A stretch of DNA of 21,975 nucleotides, from positions 1 to 21,975 of IMG/VR virus record IMGVR_UViG_3300030104_004182; one strand, 5' to 3'. Source of the DNA: a virus. Positions 13,625-21,975 of this stretch are shown here, in pieces (within the stretch, counting starts at the first letter, position 1; every line of letters starts with the position of its first letter). Under the pieces are notes generated by a model. It was not told where the DNA came from and did no database searches. It saw only the letters and a list, made by a program, of their open reading frames with translations. Made by a program: the position numbers and the translations under genes.

Positions 13625-13867
13625 TTATATTCTAGCAGAACCGTCTAGATTCTTCAACAAACGAATAGCCATTTGCCTTCCTTTTTGCCGTTCAATAAAA
13701 CCTTTTTCTTCTAAGGCTACCAAGTGCCTATTCACAACACTTAACGAACTTATGTTGGCTGTCTCTCCGATTTCCCGGTGAGAGGGCATTGTAAAATTTT
13801 TTGTGTAATAATCATCAAGAATTCGAAATATATCTAGCTGTCTTTTGGTTGGGGGAAAATTAGTCAT
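13625..13867 (-). CDS. LexA-type winged-helix DNA-binding protein without protease domain
   Basis: This encodes an 80-residue protein consisting almost only of a winged helix: PTKRQLDIFRILDDYY, then MPSHREIGETANISSLSVVN (turn and recognition helix), then HLVALEEKGFIER and a short wing. This order matches the LexA N-terminal DNA-binding domain. The S24/LexA autoprotease part is missing, so it could not be inactivated by RecA in the usual way. ATG 13867 lies 6 bases after GGAGA; it overlaps the ERF stop by 8 bases. It is the last gene before the terminator. It may repress this operon or modulate host SOS genes; this is inference. A TTG at 13870 is also in frame. Confidence 0.8.
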   Translation of the reverse strand: MTNFPPTKRQLDIFRILDDYYTKNFTMPSHREIGETANISSLSVVNRHLVALEEKGFIERQKGRQMAIRLLKNLDGSARI

Positions 13868-14507
13868 CAAACTTCTCCAATTTACTATATACCTGGTTGT
13901 AACTCTCTACGTTATGCTCCTTAATTTTTTCCATCAAATCAGCATTTTTAGTTTTCATAATCGTACCAATCTTCACTCTCTCCTCACCCTGGTATTTCTC
14001 TAATTGTTTACTAAGTACGGAATTAAATGCCATGATAGCATTTTCTATGTTGTCATAACCCTTAGAATCACTTGAGGTATGCATAATAAACTGTTTGATT
14101 TTATTGGGTTTATTCGGTCTGTTCACATTAGGAACAGGCTTAGTTTTCTCGGCATCGTCATCCTCAGTACCCAGGTTGCAGAGCATTGATACACCATATC
14201 TCCGGGCATAGGAAATGGCCGAGCCAAGACCCTGCATATTTTTACTCTGATTAATAAGATGAACCCTCGTTTCAAACATACCACCGGTTTCGTGCATTAG
14301 CATCGTGTCACAATATATTCCATGCTCATCAGTACCTTGCCGGTGAGATAAGGCAAAGCCATTACTTGCTAATATTGGTTTAACTGTATCCAACACAGAT
14401 CTCAATGTAGCATATTTGGCAAAGGCTCCCTTCTCATCCTTCTTAGCATGATCCATTTCACCTTGTGCTTTAGACAAGGCTTTGATTGCTGTCTTCATAT
14501 CATTCAT
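13860..14507 (-). CDS. erf: ERF-family single-strand annealing protein
   Basis: This encodes a 215-residue phage recombinase that anneals complementary single strands during homologous recombination or genome circularisation. The ERF signature is clear: AFAKYATLRSVLDTVKPIL (28-46), NGFALSHRQ (49-57) and GSAISYARRYGVSMLCNL (95-112) followed by the acidic EDDD (115-118). The C-terminal part after residue 125 is basic and Pro/Asn-rich, then helical, and is probably used for protein contacts. The start overlaps the stop of the exonuclease gene (ATGA), so both are made together, as in other exonuclease/annealing protein pairs such as lambda Exo/Bet. The ribosome-binding site is weak (AAGAAGAG), consistent with coupling. 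Confidence 0.9.
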   Translation of the reverse strand: MNDMKTAIKALSKAQGEMDHAKKDEKGAFAKYATLRSVLDTVKPILASNGFALSHRQGTDEHGIYCDTMLMHETGGMFETRVHLINQSKNMQGLGSAISYARRYGVSMLCNLGTEDDDAEKTKPVPNVNRPNKPNKIKQFIMHTSSDSKGYDNIENAIMAFNSVLSKQLEKYQGEERVKIGTIMKTKNADLMEKIKEHNVESYNQVYSKLEKFDD

Positions 14508-15436
14508 TGGATTGTCTCTTCTTTATTAATTTTTATTGTTAATCTCTCGTAAGGTTCCCCAGCCGGTTTAGCCGGGACAACTCGTTCCGGTGTGGCCTTA
14601 CGTTGGATCTTAGCGAGTTTAAGTGTGTAGGGGCCGATAATGCCCTGGTCACACTCCATTTTTCTTAGAACATCTTTAATAGTGTTCTCAATTTCTTCAT
14701 ACTGACGATCAAAATTCATCTTCTGAGCTTTAAAATGCATTAGCTGTTCTGTTGCGTATTGCAGTTCATCGGCTTTATCTAAGGTATTGAGATCGGCAAT
14801 ATAATTATTATCATTTGCTATTGGATAGGGATCATCTTCCTCAACTCGTCTCCAGAAATCAGCTACCAATTCTAGATAATCAGCATCCCATTCTTTATCT
14901 CGTTCATAGGGATACATATTCATCTCTAAGTTGGGACCGAGCTTGGTAATGATACCGAACTGTGCATCAAGACAAATCATTTGGTGCCGGTTTTGAGCCT
15001 CATGGTCTTTATGCGGTTCGCCTTTGTTGTAACCATCGGTCTTAATTTCAACCGGAACCACTCCAGACATTGTAATAATATTGTCCGAAACCGGGCATTT
15101 AACATCGATAGGTTCAGAGAGAAATAATTTGAGATCACAACTAGAGGCAATCTTATACTTGTCGTGTAAGTCAGCCTTGTTATTATCTATAACTTTAATT
15201 TCAGACTCAGACAGTCTCTGAAGCTCACTGAGAGTCCATTCGGCTAAAGCAGGTTCCAATACATCTCCCCTGGTTAATGCCTTCTGAGAGCCGAAAAATC
15301 CACCCTCTCCTACGGTGTTATTTACTAAGGATAGTCTTTGATCCTCATTGGTATGTCCGAAACGATTAGAGCCATATGCAATCTTACACGCATCGGAAGA
15401 CCCAAGGTGGGTATAACTGTTTGTTAATTTTGGCAT
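14504..15436 (-). CDS. YqaJ/lambda-exo-type 5'-3' exonuclease
   Basis: This encodes a 310-residue nuclease that should resect double-stranded DNA for the annealing protein downstream. Motifs in order: LGSSDACKIAYG (11-22), GDVLEPALAEW (57-67), the metal-binding Asp in SSCDLKL (Asp101), VEIKTDG (129-135, the ExK catalytic pair Glu130/Lys132) and AQNRHQMICLDA (147-158, with the conserved Gln). This is the PD-(D/E)XK arrangement of the YqaJ viral recombinase family. The C-terminal 100 residues include a coiled-coil stretch (FKAQKMNFDRQYEEIE). The ATG at 15436 was chosen because it lies 2 bases after the stop of the upstream gene, as for re-initiation. An in-frame ATG at 15466 would add ten hydrophobic residues and has no ribosome-binding site. 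Confidence 0.85.
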   Translation of the reverse strand: MPKLTNSYTHLGSSDACKIAYGSNRFGHTNEDQRLSLVNNTVGEGGFFGSQKALTRGDVLEPALAEWTLSELQRLSESEIKVIDNNKADLHDKYKIASSCDLKLFLSEPIDVKCPVSDNIITMSGVVPVEIKTDGYNKGEPHKDHEAQNRHQMICLDAQFGIITKLGPNLEMNMYPYERDKEWDADYLELVADFWRRVEEDDPYPIANDNNYIADLNTLDKADELQYATEQLMHFKAQKMNFDRQYEEIENTIKDVLRKMECDQGIIGPYTLKLAKIQRKATPERVVPAKPAGEPYERLTIKINKEETIQ

Positions 15437-15438
15437 TG

Positions 15439-15705
15439 TTAAACACCATAAAAGGTGGTAAAACATTCGTCAGAGAATAAGCAGGAGCCAACCAACAAAA
15501 AGTACAAAGAGATTGAAATCAATATCAGGGCGATAAAATCTAGGCTGACTAGATAAGCCCAACTGACTAGGTCAGACTTTTTGTTTAGGTAATTTAGGTG
15601 AGTGCTACTGGTTGGATTAACACTATATATATTATGCGCCAATTTTGGGTCTAAAGAAGACTCCGGTTTTGGATGCACCTTATTTGTATGACTTTTTATA
15701 ATCAT
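15439..15705 (-). CDS. Small membrane protein of unknown function
   Basis: This encodes an 88-residue protein. Residues 1-45 are polar; residues about 48-76 (WAYLVSLDFIALILISISLY) form one strong hydrophobic segment, with two Cys just after it and a short tail. The ATG is 8 bases after AGGAAAG. Its stop is 2 bases before the exonuclease start. I do not recognise the family. A single-pass membrane protein inserted between unknown genes and recombination genes of a temperate phage could act in exclusion of other phages, but nothing in the sequence proves it. Confidence 0.6.
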   Translation of the reverse strand: MIIKSHTNKVHPKPESSLDPKLAHNIYSVNPTSSTHLNYLNKKSDLVSWAYLVSLDFIALILISISLYFLLVGSCLFSDECFTTFYGV

Positions 15706-15796
15706 GCTACTTTCTTTCCTGTATTGCAGTTTCTAAAAGGCTACTGCTCTATTATTTTCACTTTCAGCAAAGACCCTACTAGGTTCTGCTCAAGCT

Positions 15797-16198
15797 CTAT
15801 TTGATGTTATAGAAAGCCCCGGTTCTCGGATCAGCCCCGGCCTCAAGTTTTAACTCATGGTTAAGATTGCGTACTGCGTGTTGGGCATGGAAAAGAAATT
15901 CCCAATCGGTAATCTTTTTCTCCCGCACACGCTTAACCAAATCATTTAACTCATTCGATAAGGCACGAAATCCCCGACTAGCCCGTTGCACTTGTGTTTT
16001 GGACACCATCGGGACGGTAACCCGACACGCCATTCCAAGACCGGCATTTTGCATATACTGGACACCATTGTGGAGTTGCTTGTGATATTGGCGAACCTGG
16101 ATATCCGTCATTGGCTCCCCTTTTTCAGGCAACCTACGCATAACCATCTTATCTTTTGCACTAAACACAATCGTTTCTTTCGCTCTCTTTGTCATCAT
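15797..16198 (-). CDS. Unknown basic protein, first gene after the internal promoter
   Basis: This encodes a 133-residue protein, helical and basic (KTQVQRASRGFRALSNELND, VKRVREKKITDWEFL), with no membrane segment or Cys cluster. I do not recognise it. Starts are possible at 16198, 16195 (both ATG) and 16207 (GTG). GAGAAG just upstream favours one of the ATGs, 16195 having the best spacing. It begins about 70 bases downstream of a promoter with a consensus TATAAT and is followed by a 91-base gap without a clear signal before the membrane protein gene. Possible roles include binding DNA alongside the recombinases; this is only suggested by charge and place. Confidence 0.6.
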   Translation of the reverse strand: MMTKRAKETIVFSAKDKMVMRRLPEKGEPMTDIQVRQYHKQLHNGVQYMQNAGLGMACRVTVPMVSKTQVQRASRGFRALSNELNDLVKRVREKKITDWEFLFHAQHAVRNLNHELKLEAGADPRTGAFYNIK

Positions 16199-16240
16199 TC
16201 TTCTCACTTTATCTGTTTAAGTTTCTCCAGTCATTGGTAA

Positions 16241-16258
16241 TCTTTACCAAGGGTAGAA
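16241..16258 (+). repeat. Inverted partial copy of the 18-bp repeat
   Basis: TCTTTACCAAGGGTAGAA reads, on the other strand, as the TTCTACC/TTGGTAAAG word found at 16345-16362, with one extra C. It lies in the presumed 5' leader of the leftward transcript that starts near 16269. It could be an operator for a regulator that also binds the tandem copies. Confidence 0.4.
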
Positions 16259-16275
16259 GCCAAAAATCGGCAAAT

Positions 16276-16303
16276 ATTATAGATATTGTGCGTATTACGT
16301 CAC
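16276..16303 (-). promoter_or_regulatory. Leftward promoter for the recombination genes
   Basis: On the - strand, GTGACG (16303-16298) is followed after 16 bp by a perfect TATAAT (16281-16276). The predicted start is near 16269, about 70 bases before the next gene. It would drive the unknown basic protein, the membrane protein, exonuclease, ERF and LexA-like genes separately from the serine recombinase genes upstream. The -35 box matches consensus at 4 of 6 positions. Confidence 0.55.
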
Positions 16304-16307
16304 GTTA
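16295..16307. promoter_or_regulatory. Operator-like dyad over the -35 box
   Basis: TTACGTCACGTTA is symmetric about 16301 apart from one base pair, with perfect ACGT half-sites. It covers the -35 hexamer of the leftward promoter, the usual place for a repressor site. The 217-residue winged-helix protein encoded beside it and the LexA-like protein at the end of the operon are the candidate binders. It could instead be part of a recombinase site. Confidence 0.4.
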
Positions 16308-16320
16308 TCGCTAGATATAG

Positions 16321-16974
16321 CTATTTACCCTTGGAAATGTTTTCTACCTTGGTAAAGTTTTCTACCTTGGAAATGTTTTCTAGGGGTTCGTCTATAAAGC
16401 TATAATCGTTGTGAGGACATGTAGCAACCTTACCCGTTTGTTGCTTATACATATCCGAAACTCTCCAGAAATGGGTTAAGTCGAGAAGAAAATTTCTTAT
16501 CTTTGGGTCATCCATATAAAGAATGTGCATATATTTCTCATAGATTTTTATAGATAATTCTGTGGATCTAAAATACAGCCTCTGATCTCTGTCCCTTTTA
16601 TCTGGATTTTCATACAGCTCAACTGAATTAAGATCCATGTAATCCATCAGAATTTCCCTTGCCATCTTATCGGAACAGCCAAGCTCTGTGACAACATCAG
16701 CCAAACTCACATAGGTATTTTCAAGTCTCGCAATTATCGTTAGTCTGGAAAAAGCTCTGGTATAAGTCCCGGAGTTAGCATATTCAATAATCTTTCTCTC
16801 TTCTTCTGTATCGCCATGCACCACTCTGTGTTGCTTAGTAAAAATTTCTTTTTCTCTATGAGCCAGATAATAAATTATTCTCCGAAAAAGTGACTTCATA
16901 GTCTTGTCTAAAATTTTTGCACTTGTTCCAAAATGCTCATCAAATTCACTTATGCCAAATTTTTTATTGTCCAT
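16321..16974 (-). CDS. Winged-helix DNA-binding protein paired with the serine recombinase
   Basis: This encodes a 217-residue protein. Residues about 72-137 look like a winged helix: TRAFSRLTIIARLENTYVSL, then ADVVTELGCSDKMAREILMD (helix-turn-helix), then a wing with LYENPDKRDRDQRLYFRS. Flanking helices (25-45 and 138-190) could dimerise, and the ISEFDEHFG opening is acidic. The last 20 residues repeat the words VENISK and VENFTK, encoded by three tandem 18-bp units. The start ATG shares a base with the last base of the recombinase stop codon (TAATG), so the two are co-translated. It could be a recombination directionality factor or the repressor of the adjacent promoter. The family is not recognised. 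Confidence 0.65.
   Translation of the reverse strand: MDNKKFGISEFDEHFGTSAKILDKTMKSLFRRIIYYLAHREKEIFTKQHRVVHGDTEEERKIIEYANSGTYTRAFSRLTIIARLENTYVSLADVVTELGCSDKMAREILMDYMDLNSVELYENPDKRDRDQRLYFRSTELSIKIYEKYMHILYMDDPKIRNFLLDLTHFWRVSDMYKQQTGKVATCPHNDYSFIDEPLENISKVENFTKVENISKGK
16327..16380 (-). repeat. Three tandem 18-bp repeats at the 3' end of the winged-helix gene
   Basis: The units at 16380-16363, 16362-16345 and 16344-16327 read GAAAACATTTCCAAGGTA with two to three changes between copies. They encode six-residue words (ENISKV, ENFTKV, ENISKG). Their number, the 18-bp period and an inverted copy nearby at 16241 suggest either binding sites or a slipped-strand expansion. Confidence 0.8.
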
Positions 16975-17846
16975 TACTTTTTCCCTTCCACTTTTTTTGT
17001 CCTTAATTTAACGTCTGGATTTCTGCGGTAATAGGGATTGTCTGGATTATTTGGACTACCCAATTCCACTCTTTTTATAAGTTTGGTTATAGATGCCGGG
17101 TTCCACTCACCGCCATTCGGTCTCGGAAAACGATCCGGGTACGCATTAAATTCCTCACAAATGGCTCGATAGCTATAGCCATCACCGATGCGGTACATAA
17201 TATCTCTATAGAAAAAATAGGCATAGGCATCGGCTTTGAATGTCTTACGCTCACTGGCTATCTCTCTGGCCTTATCCATATTATCGTGCATACCGAGCTT
17301 AACGATGCGATTGCCCTGCTTGGATACCTTAAAGCCCTTATCGTTGATCTCTGACCGGATAGCATCTAGTGCTTGTTTGGTCTTACGTCCGGTATCGGTG
17401 GCATATTCCTCGGCTTTCCGTGCTTCTTCCTTCAACAGAATGATCTTTGTCCGGGTATCCACCATCTCGAGATGAGGCATATCGCAGACAATCAAGTTGC
17501 ACCTGTCTCTCTTTAGCTCCTCTTCAAAAAACCTATAGGAATGCCATACTTTTCGTGAAAATCGGGAGATATCGGCAACAATAAGGTTCCCCTTCCCCCC
17601 CTTGCGTTTATTCTTAAACGCATCATCAAGGCATCTCTTCAGCCCTGGTCGTTGCTCGGGCGGTAACGTACCGCTGAAATCTTCATCGGAATACCACTTC
17701 ACTTCATGTTGCCCACCGTTGAGATACTTGCGGATCATATCCTGCTGTCTTTCCAGAGTCTGCGTATCCGTACTAACCCGACAGTATGCATGGTAGACTC
17801 CTCTATGTGCCTGTCCGGCTAAATTGTCGTATATATTATGTGCCAT
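16974..17846 (-). CDS. Serine recombinase (resolvase/integrase type)
   Basis: This encodes a 290-residue site-specific recombinase. The catalytic domain shows YCRVSTDTQTLERQQDMI with the nucleophile Ser25, then LIVADISRFSRKVW (89-101) with the conserved Asp and Arg residues, and the long helix KEEARKAEEYATDTGRKTKQ. Residues about 205-260 (RDIMYRIGDGYSYRAICEEF, then NGGEWNPASITKLIKR) match the 'Recombinase' DNA-binding domain of larger serine integrases. At 290 residues it is longer than invertases and resolvases (about 185-200) but lacks the zinc-ribbon and coiled-coil part of large integrases (450 or more). It is the only integrase candidate in the window. Its ribosome-binding cassette is the same as that of the small genes upstream. 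Confidence 0.85.
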   Translation of the reverse strand: MAHNIYDNLAGQAHRGVYHAYCRVSTDTQTLERQQDMIRKYLNGGQHEVKWYSDEDFSGTLPPEQRPGLKRCLDDAFKNKRKGGKGNLIVADISRFSRKVWHSYRFFEEELKRDRCNLIVCDMPHLEMVDTRTKIILLKEEARKAEEYATDTGRKTKQALDAIRSEINDKGFKVSKQGNRIVKLGMHDNMDKAREIASERKTFKADAYAYFFYRDIMYRIGDGYSYRAICEEFNAYPDRFPRPNGGEWNPASITKLIKRVELGSPNNPDNPYYRRNPDVKLRTKKVEGKK

Positions 17847-19594: not shown

Positions 19595-19894
19595 TTGCAG
19601 AAGTTTATACATTATTTTGACCAGGTAAGCACCCTACCCTTCCACGATTTTGCCCACCACAAAAGAGCCAAGGCAGAACAGGTAAAGTATAGAGCTTTAT
19701 TCACAGCATTAGCCAGGCGAATAGGATTGTTTTCTTTTCCGCAGTTGGGACAGTTATTCAAGAAGGACCACACCACAATCATTCACTACCAAAAAAGACA
19801 TTTGGAGATGTTTGAAAACGATGATGCTTATGCCCTCATTTACATGGACTTGGAAGAGAACATTAAGAAGTTGATTGAGGAGAAAAGTAAATGA
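19595..19894 (+). CDS. Stand-alone DnaA domain IV-like DNA-binding protein
   Basis: This encodes a 99-residue protein. Residues 40-70 (ARRIGLFSFPQLGQLFKKDH, then TTIIHYQKRHL) match the DnaA C-terminal DNA-binding domain, including the signature DHTT (58-61) that reads the DnaA box, and the LG..F helix before it. There is no AAA+ ATPase part. The start is probably the TTG at 19595, 7 bases after AAGGAAG and 2 bases after the stop of the DUF1064 gene; upstream frame is out-of-frame DUF1064 sequence. Two perfect DnaA boxes lie in the origin-like region 1.9 kb downstream. It may compete with host DnaA or load at the phage origin; this is inference. Confidence 0.8.
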   Translation: MQKFIHYFDQVSTLPFHDFAHHKRAKAEQVKYRALFTALARRIGLFSFPQLGQLFKKDHTTIIHYQKRHLEMFENDDAYALIYMDLEENIKKLIEEKSK

Positions 19895-20287: not shown

Positions 20288-20496
20288 CAGCTACTATATT
20301 CATAACATTTCCTCTGTATCTCATTCTGGTTCCGGACATCGAAAAGGAAGAATACGTTGTTCATCGTCTTCAGTTTGAAAAGCAGGATGTCTGTTTGCAT
20401 TTTGCAAAAGCACTGGACCAAGTCCGTGATCCGATAGCCCGGAAGAAACAATGCCGGCCTATAAAAAACTATACCTATCCAGAGAAAAACAAATGA
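20284..20496 (+). CDS. Small protein of unknown function
   Basis: This encodes a 70-residue protein starting at an ATGA overlap. The first 17 residues (MTATIFITFPLYLILVP) are hydrophobic and could be a signal anchor or a buried strand. The rest is mixed and basic near the end (IARKKQCRPIKNYTYPEKNK). No family is recognised. The next gene starts inside its stop codon, again ATGA, so it is probably translated, but its sequence gives no clue to its role. Confidence 0.55.
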   Translation: MTATIFITFPLYLILVPDIEKEEYVVHRLQFEKQDVCLHFAKALDQVRDPIARKKQCRPIKNYTYPEKNK

Positions 20497-21311
20497 GTTT
20501 TACCTTATCAGAACCGCATCCAAACCCGGATATACGGATTATTAGTTTAGGAGCCGGTGTGCAATCGACTGTACTAGCATTAATGGCGAGTAAGGGCGAG
20601 ATTGGGCCACTGCCCGATTGTGCAATCTTTGCTGATACTGGGTACGAACCGCAAGGCGTGTATGATCATCTTGAGTGGCTAATAAAAGAACTCCCCTTCC
20701 CCACGTATATTGTAGCAAGTGGCAACATAAAGCAGGATATTGAGAAGGGTGTAAACTCGTCAGGCACTCGGTTTGTCGCAATGCCTTTCTTTACTAAGGA
20801 AGGTGGCATGGGCATGAGACAATGCACAAATGAATATAAGATTGTACCACTAAAGAAAAAGACCAGAGAATTACTAGGATTAAAATATAAACAGAGAGCC
20901 ACAACGCAGATATCCGAAACATGGCTTGGCATATCCTGGGATGAAATGCAGAGGATGAAGGAGAGCAGAGACAAGTTCATCTATCATCGGTTTCCGCTCA
21001 TTGAAAAGAAAATGCGAAGGCATCATTGTATGACATGGTTTGAAGAGCATTATCCGGGTAGAAGTCTAGCTAAATCTGCCTGTATAGCCTGTCCCTTTCA
21101 CGATAATGCAACGTGGCGAGATATTAAGATTAATGACCCGGTGTCCTGGAATGATGCTGTTGAGTTTGATAAAACAATTCGACATAAAGCCGATCATGCC
21201 CAGTATGTGCATCGTAGTCTAAAGCCATTGGCTGAGGTTGATTTTGATAACGCAGAGGATAAGGGGCAGATGTCATTCCTAGATGAGTGCGAGGGTTTTT
21301 GCGGAATATGA
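20493..21311 (+). CDS. PAPS-reductase-like ATP-pyrophosphatase family protein
   Basis: This encodes a 272-residue protein. ISLGAGVQSTVLALMA (17-32) is the variant PP-loop of phage proteins usually annotated as phosphoadenosine phosphosulfate reductase family. It is followed by CAIFADTGYEPQGVYDHLEW (43-62), RQCTNEYKIVPL (109-120, Cys111), ISWDEMQRMK (147-156) and SACIACPFHDNATWRDI (195-211, Cys197 and Cys200). The three conserved Cys could bind a metal or take part in sulfur transfer. The true substrate is unknown; roles in sulfur use or nucleic-acid modification are both possible. Because it sits in a replication operon, DNA or nucleotide modification is worth considering. ATG 20493 overlaps the previous stop; an earlier in-frame start at 20451 is less likely. 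Confidence 0.8.
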   Translation: MSFTLSEPHPNPDIRIISLGAGVQSTVLALMASKGEIGPLPDCAIFADTGYEPQGVYDHLEWLIKELPFPTYIVASGNIKQDIEKGVNSSGTRFVAMPFFTKEGGMGMRQCTNEYKIVPLKKKTRELLGLKYKQRATTQISETWLGISWDEMQRMKESRDKFIYHRFPLIEKKMRRHHCMTWFEEHYPGRSLAKSACIACPFHDNATWRDIKINDPVSWNDAVEFDKTIRHKADHAQYVHRSLKPLAEVDFDNAEDKGQMSFLDECEGFCGI

Positions 21312-21975
21312 ACGATAGTGCAGAACTACAGAAGATTAAGGAAGCCCGTTATGAGATACTGAGGCCACCGCTAGAGCATTGTACATCGGTGGATAATAAT
21401 CTGGCCCCTGGCCCCTACTCTGTTTTGCCTTCACGATGCTTTGCCGATAACAGGCTAAGGGGAGCCACCTTTAGAGTTTTGGGTATTCTATGCAGTCATA
21501 CCAACCAGAGATCCGGATTGGTGTACGTTAATCAGCTAACCATTGGCAATCGATTGGGTATCTCTAAACAGGCGGTGAGCCGGCAAATGCGAGTGCTAGA
21601 GACATCAGGATATATAAAGAAGATCTGGAAGGAAAACCCCCTCAGGAAACAGGGGAGAAAGGGAGCAACGTGGCGATTAATCTATGACCCGGCAGTCACC
21701 GATGAGGACATTCTAGCGCATAATAAACCCAAATATGTCGAGGCTCAAGATGCTAAAGAGACGCTGGAAGTGATACAAAAGGCTGTGGATAACTCGGCTA
21801 AATCTGTGGATAACTCGCAGAAAGTCATCCCCCAGGTTGACTATGGAGATACAAAAGTCATCCCACAGGTTGACCAGGGAAGTACAAAAGTCATCCCCCA
21901 GGTTGACTCAAAGGGTAAAAAAGTTGCTCCACAGGTTGACCATAACAATATAACTTATAGTTATAAAAGGAATAA
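21308..21975 (+). CDS. Lambda-O-like replication initiator (partial, origin inside)
   Basis: This is the first 222 residues of a protein that runs off the window; ATG 21308 overlaps the previous stop (ATGA). Residues about 56-107 form a winged helix: FRVLGILCSHTNQRSGLVYV, NQLTIGNRLGISKQAVSRQM (recognition helix), then RVLETSGYIKKIW. From residue 160 the chain becomes low complexity: two VDNS words, then four 11-residue repeats beginning KVIPQVD or KVAPQVD (172-211). The DNA coding these contains two DnaA boxes and four iterons, as in phage lambda where O binds iterons inside its own gene. A C-terminal domain that recruits a helicase or helicase loader would be expected next. Family assignment rests on the winged helix, the position and the embedded repeats. 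Confidence 0.8.
   Translation, partial: MNDSAELQKIKEARYEILRPPLEHCTSVDNNLAPGPYSVLPSRCFADNRLRGATFRVLGILCSHTNQRSGLVYVNQLTIGNRLGISKQAVSRQMRVLETSGYIKKIWKENPLRKQGRKGATWRLIYDPAVTDEDILAHNKPKYVEAQDAKETLEVIQKAVDNSAKSVDNSQKVIPQVDYGDTKVIPQVDQGSTKVIPQVDSKGKKVAPQVDHNNITYSYKRN
21784..21792 (-). other. DnaA box 1
   Basis: TGTGGATAA on the + strand is TTATCCACA on the - strand, the exact consensus DnaA box. It is part of a 14-bp direct repeat (CTGTGGATAACTCG, 21783-21796) that recurs 21 bp downstream. Confidence 0.75.
21805..21813 (-). other. DnaA box 2
   Basis: This is a second perfect TTATCCACA on the - strand, same orientation, start to start 21 bp from the first, which is two helical turns. Both boxes therefore face the same side of the DNA. 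It lies 7 bases before the first iteron. Confidence 0.75.
21821..21940 (+). repeat. Four origin iterons at 33-bp period
   Basis: Units lie at 21821-21841, 21854-21874, 21887-21907 and 21920-21940. The core is GTCATCCCCCAGGTTGAC. Units 1 and 3 are identical over 21 bp, unit 2 has one change, unit 4 has five or fewer in its left half. The core is an imperfect dyad with GTCA and TGAC ends. The 12-bp spacers are not conserved. Likely binding sites for the initiator encoded by the same gene. Confidence 0.8.
21941..21975 (+). other. AT-rich segment next to the iterons, likely unwinding region (partial)
   Basis: After the last iteron the sequence drops to almost pure A and T, with a perfect 6-bp inverted repeat ATAACT (21950-21955) and AGTTAT (21959-21964) around a 3-base loop. 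In lambda an AT-rich stretch beside the iterons melts first. The window ends here, so its full length is unknown. Confidence 0.6.

Follow-up and report, generated by a model that had tools for sequence, protein, structure and literature searches.

In bacteriophage lambda the replication origin is embedded in the initiator gene: four iterons in O bind dimers of the O protein, and a 40-bp A+T-rich tract lies next to them (PMC5043065). Two DnaA-box-like sequences have been footprinted downstream of pO, as cited in PMC3985674, which places DnaA-binding sites near the lambda origin; in principle, therefore, origins of the lambda kind were already known to involve DnaA. In the origins of iteron plasmids, too, DnaA boxes adjoin iterons and an A+T-rich tract, as in P1, F, pSC101 and RK2 (PMC3155836, PMC5043065), while in repABC plasmids oriV lies inside repC, i.e. 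within the coding sequence of the initiator, but contains neither iterons nor DnaA boxes there (PMC3155836). The Methylophilales phage MEP301 possesses tail tubular and internal virion proteins and has no RNA or DNA polymerase genes (PMC8024684), hence the phage group considered here, of which it is the nearest cultured relative, appears to rely on the polymerases of the host.

The window analyzed here is a virus record of 21,975 bp, which ends within a gene encoding a putative replication initiator. The features relevant to the prediction of an origin are as follows (coordinates, strand, description):

19595..19894, plus strand: gene for a predicted stand-alone DnaA domain-IV (DNA-binding domain) protein of ~99 aa; TTG start deduced, ATG at the same codon in the relatives L049 and L053
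21308..21975, plus strand: rep, replication initiator gene, starting with the ATG at 21308 and running off the contig
21452..21616, plus strand: winged-helix (HTH_36) domain of the initiator according to Pfam, residues 56–110 of the ORF counted from 21287
21784..21792, minus strand: DnaA box 1, TTATCCACA, reading TGTGGATAA on the plus strand and encoding Val-Asp-Asn
21805..21813, minus strand: DnaA box 2, TTATCCACA, in the second copy of a 21-bp module
21824..21841, plus strand: iteron 1, GTCATCCCCCAGGTTGAC
21857..21874, plus strand: iteron 2, GTCATCCCACAGGTTGAC, one base off cores 1 and 3
21890..21907, plus strand: iteron 3, same sequence as iteron 1
21923..21940, plus strand: iteron 4, degenerate, GTTGCTCCACAGGTTGAC
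21941..21975, no strand assigned: A+T-rich tract, candidate unwinding element, 83% AT over 35 bp, cut by the contig end

The initial annotation of this DNA had described most of these elements correctly. The two perfect DnaA boxes, 21 bp apart and in frame, are right in coordinates and sequence; the four iterons follow each other with an exact 33-bp period, though the fourth is degenerate; the 18-bp cores exhibit the partial dyad symmetry ascribed to them (6/9, 6/9, 6/9 and 3/9 pairs in cores 1–4); and cores 1 and 3 are indeed identical over 21 bp, every third position included. The AT-rich hairpin that had been counted among the origin elements fared less well: TATAACT-TAT-AGTTATA is present at 21949–21965, inside the A+T-rich tract, but 12 of 200 shuffled sequences fold at least as well (z -1.67) and the hairpin is not conserved in the relatives, hence it was rejected as an element of the origin.

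Compared with the layout of iteron plasmids, the array in the window is wholly coding and lies inside the initiator gene, whose product matches phage families and not RepA or RepE. The likeness to the lambda origin is closer, with four dyad iterons of ~18–19 bp placed in the initiator gene past the part encoding the DNA-binding domain and followed by an A+T-rich tract. On the other hand, the iteron period is 20–24 bp in lambda and 33 bp in the window, the iteron sequences differ, the initiator belongs to HTH_36 instead of Phage_rep_O, exact DnaA boxes occur within the gene, and a P-type helicase loader is not evident beside rep in the relatives of the window. The claim that lambda has no such pair of boxes holds in that we found no exact consensus DnaA box in lambda 37,900–40,300, but must be qualified by the DnaA-binding sites mentioned above. 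A lambda-like in-gene origin with an initiator from outside the lambda O family is well supported, and would carry the lambda scheme, in which the initiator gene contains the origin, over to marine podoviruses with HTH_36 initiators. What appears to be new is the pair of exact boxes inside the gene, together with a DnaA domain IV encoded by the phage.

The assignment of the initiator is based on a Pfam match to HTH_36 (32.6 bits against a cut-off of 25; 7e-8); apart from this family, only general winged-helix families matched, and Phage_rep_O (PF04492) did not. The PHROG matches comprise replication initiation, DnaD-like and O-like proteins, of which the O-like ones are weak. The rep product has 303–314 aa in complete relatives. 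In the relatives rep is followed by genes for small proteins and then for the terminase large subunit; judged by gene order and size, no helicase loader of the P or DnaC type is evident beside it. Structure prediction yielded a model of low confidence (pLDDT 50), which was therefore kept out of fold searches. The iteron-coding stretch falls in a region modelled with low confidence, which separates the winged helix from a C-terminal part made of helices. Taking together this model and the fact that the repeats are flanked by conserved parts of the protein, the iteron array probably encodes a flexible linker.

A search with the single sequence of the window initiator revealed no viral relative, and no named phage matched the complete window in a megablast search. 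Relatives were reached via the DnaA-like neighbor first and then via an initiator alignment, which had no relative among bacterial and archaeal genomes. Ten other distinct initiators were recovered in this way by protein similarity, ~56–67% identical over the aligned part. The nearest cultured relative is MEP301, with T7-like virion genes, a winged-helix gene 38% identical over 105 aa, and a terminase 63.5% identical to that of one of the relatives (L048). Its homologous gene differs from rep in having no in-gene repeats and no exact boxes; like another more distant homologue, L066, it retains the winged helix and lacks such repeats. The opinion that the combination of such an origin with a T7-like virion is unusual has to be corrected, as small marine podoviruses, e.g. 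MEP301, do combine a T7-like virion with host-dependent replication (PMC8024684).

We consider it likely that a small marine podovirus replicates from an origin in the linker-coding stretch of rep, at which Rep acts together with a DnaA-type box binder. We infer binding, unwinding, helicase loading and the identity of the box user as follows. By analogy with lambda, the winged-helix initiator, probably as a dimer, would bind the 18-bp palindromes of the iteron array, which recur about every three helical turns, and the resulting initiator-DNA complex would destabilize the A+T-rich tract just downstream, where the host helicase and replisome would then be loaded. The two boxes immediately upstream would attract a DNA-binding domain of the DnaA type, which could belong to the host DnaA or to the phage domain-IV protein, and the bound domain may stabilize the opening, aid the delivery of the helicase or regulate initiation. 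The prediction makes it possible to address experimentally how phages with neither a polymerase of their own nor an evident helicase loader capture the host replication machinery, and offers a testable mechanism by which the start of host replication may be borrowed or blocked by small phages.

The domain-IV gene, located 1.4 kb upstream of rep, had been missed in the initial annotation. The Pfam family Bac_DnaA_C scores slightly below its cut-off on the product (30.0 bits versus 31.5; 5.5e-7), and sequence-profile searches of the PDB matched DnaA chains only (best 1j1v, E 0.0013). The AlphaFold model is of high quality (pLDDT 92.9), and Foldseek identified DnaA structures as all eight best PDB matches, with 3pvp and 1j1v, both DnaA bound to box DNA, at the top (3pvp: probability 1.00, TM 0.80/0.85; the best E-value is 0.016, for a small domain); good matches to the fold come from DnaA alone. 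Thus, the protein is predicted to fold as the DNA-binding domain of DnaA; it comprises domain IV alone, with no AAA+ ATPase domain.

This gene is found upstream of rep in every relative in which both genes are on the contig, and also in the distantly related L299. The co-inheritance of a DnaA DNA-binding domain raises the question of whether the host machinery is captured with the host DnaA or against it. One answer is that the target of the protein is the host chromosome, where it would block oriC or promoters regulated by DnaA, while the boxes in the phage are used by the host DnaA. A protein devoid of the AAA+ domain could indeed compete with DnaA, and relatives that have no consensus box keep the gene too, which means that the protein has another target there. 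Against such a role, the gene is always upstream of rep, and the recognition motif takes the forms DHTT in the window and DHST in L299, both with paired boxes, and DHAS or DHSS in the others; the paired-box forms retain more of the DnaA motif, albeit in a small sample into which L055 (one box, DHAS) does not fit. On balance we find the chromosomal role doubtful, if quite conceivable. Alternatively, the phage domain-IV protein could itself occupy the in-gene boxes, creating a two-protein origin independent of the host DnaA, served by the O-like initiator and a DnaA domain IV devoid of its ATPase, and compete with the host DnaA at the chromosome as well; we regard this combination as rather unlikely.

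The slot between the domain-IV gene and rep (20451–21311) contains a PAPS-reductase-like gene and small ORFs in the window. Among the relatives examined for this slot (L044, L045, L046–L053), L044, L045 and L047 have a different gene there and most others no large gene. The slot is a swap site for accessory genes.

The DnaA boxes themselves vary among the relatives. Their starts are 21 bp apart, both lie within a 14-bp direct repeat, CTGTGGATAACTCG, and they are the only exact DnaA boxes in the whole 21,975 bp, whereas sites with at most one mismatch occur at the level expected by chance (9, including the two exact ones, versus 7.1). Among the 11 members of the protein-similarity set, exact boxes in the module are found in the window (two), L054 (one) and L055 (one), and in none of the other eight. 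The single boxes of L054 and L055 belong to the 21-bp module and are at the same distance from the start codon as in the window (gene position 477). In L054 there is one more exact box, toward the 5' end of rep (L054:282–290), and a one-mismatch version of it occurs at that site in the window and four relatives. Judged from these sequences, the boxes are a variable module that is gained and lost within the group. Being absent from 8/11 members, they are not an obligatory part of the group's origin; of the lambda-type origin with DnaA boxes that had been proposed, the lambda-like location inside the initiator gene is supported, the boxes not fully.

This absence would be easily understood if the boxes were by-products of a Val-Asp-rich linker with favorable codons and bound nothing, the more so that the encoded Val-Asp-Asn is akin to the Val-Asp of the repeats. 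However, when synonymous codons were shuffled under the same protein sequence, both boxes arose in only 66 of 20,000 shuffles (0.3%). Moreover, the initiator of L299, a homologue with 31% identity over nearly the whole protein, has TTATCCACAGAGTTATCCACA at the equivalent position, inverted and in another coding frame. Its two boxes are encoded as Leu-Ser-Thr, and after them a palindrome of another sequence, ACAACC-N6-GGTTGT, occurs twice. Unrelated initiators have boxes ahead of palindromic repeats as well, albeit in loci selected for boxes. Since the boxes recur in L299 and in the unrelated initiators of L109, L282 and L294, mere coincidence is unlikely, and so, in our opinion, is an origin of the boxes as by-products of the linker.

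The unrelated examples come from 210 viral tandem-box loci, some of them near-duplicates, which were picked for having boxes and hence demonstrate recurrence and not frequency. In nine of them (L105, L109, L213, L271, L282, L284, L291, L294 and L299) tandem boxes lie inside a winged-helix initiator gene, after the winged helix, and in four (L109, L282, L294, L299) palindromic repeats follow. The locus L109, with a Phage_rep_O initiator, has three boxes with a 12-bp period, GGTAACTAATCAGTTACC twice and a variant (reverse complement of 1684–1840), and then three GGTAAC...GTTACC palindromes as iterons, which occupy two frames and precede an A+T-rich tract; by its sequence it is an independent example of the layout with boxes, iterons and an A+T-rich tract. 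Tandem consensus boxes stand right after the winged helix, as in the window, in L109, L213/L282/L294, L299, L105 and L284, but the sequence of the iterons and the number, spacing and orientation of the boxes differ from one of these initiators to the next. Searches of open-licence papers turned up no description of boxes plus iterons inside phage initiator genes. Winged helix, DnaA boxes, palindromic iterons and A+T-rich tract, all coding, thus form a recurring layout in several unrelated initiators.

The iterons could also be an autoregulatory operator array or a copy-control locus of the initiator, with the origin located elsewhere. In iteron plasmids, iteron arrays can serve copy control and autoregulation too, and the GC skew does not point to the array. 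The skew check proposed in the initial annotation was carried out and decided nothing: the cumulative skew changes sign 1–3 kb before the array, at the point where the genes reverse direction, and because it tracks gene orientation it speaks neither for nor against the array as the origin. The array, however, is ~500 bp inside the gene, away from the promoter; it is followed by an A+T-rich tract in every relative (70–78% AT over 40 bp); and the layout matches that of the experimentally proven lambda origin (PMC5043065). A purely regulatory array therefore seems to us very unlikely. Downstream of the iterons in L046 (2999–3040), there are runs, e.g. TAGTAGTAATAGTAGTAATAA, that look like the DnaA-trio elements of bacteria. 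This reading of post-iteron runs, e.g. TAGTAGTAATAGTAGTAA in L045, L046 and L052, was rejected, as the trios are replaced in L050, L051 and L053.

The DNA of the iterons is itself under selection according to the comparison with the relatives. Within the window, the four iteron 21-mers share 110/126 pairwise identities versus 95.1 +/- 3.4 in synonymous shuffles (10/20,000 reach 110/126), but duplication explains part of the likeness between repeats of a single gene, which makes this synonymous identity weaker evidence than its p-value implies. The family iteron is an 18-bp palindrome, GTMAAC-N5/6-GTTGAC, from which the best iterons of the window deviate by one base (GTCATC instead of GTCAAC); palindromic iterons of the family consensus were observed three times in the window versus 0.04 expected under synonymous shuffling, a count reached in 0 of 1,000 shuffles. 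The argument is carried by the relatives, which are not statistically independent of one another: Val is encoded by GTT in all 36 repeat units versus 34/172 (20%) elsewhere in the same genes (Fisher 4e-21), and Asp by GAC in 34/36 versus 47/139 (34%) (Fisher 1e-11).

The same palindrome is read in two frames, as K-V-N...V-D or, one base shifted, as K-S-Q-P-D-V-D, so that the left arm GTCAAC specifies Val-Asn in some units and, one base later, a part of Ser-Gln-Pro in others. In addition, the cores of the KVNLGVD and KVNPQVD forms, GTCAACCTGGGGGTTGAC and GTCAACCCCCAGGTTGAC, match each other exactly as reverse complements while encoding different peptides. A palindrome spanning two frames, reverse-complement forms and near-fixed codons are not the product of constraint on the protein alone. 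The assertion that the DNA and not only the protein repeat is conserved thus finds its confirmation in the synonymous-site identity kept by the relatives. That the repeats were selected only as a repetitive protein linker, with no DNA element, is suggested by their being in frame with an 11-aa unit, but is extremely improbable given codons that are nearly invariant within the repeats and variable outside, and a palindrome that persists when the frame is shifted or the sequence reverse-complemented, although other amino acids are then encoded.

Elsewhere in the window, no match to tRNAs or Rfam families was found. The minus strand of 13860–17846 contains a leftward block encoding an Erf-like annealing protein, a RecE-like exonuclease and a resolvase-type serine recombinase with no evident large-serine-integrase partner domain, as reported for MEP301. 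At 16329–16382, in the 3' end of the minus-strand gene 16321–16974, there are three tandem 18-bp copies of CCTTGGAAATGTTTTCTA, in frame (ENISKVENFTKVENISK); located beside the recombinase gene, these repeats are possibly another in-gene DNA element.
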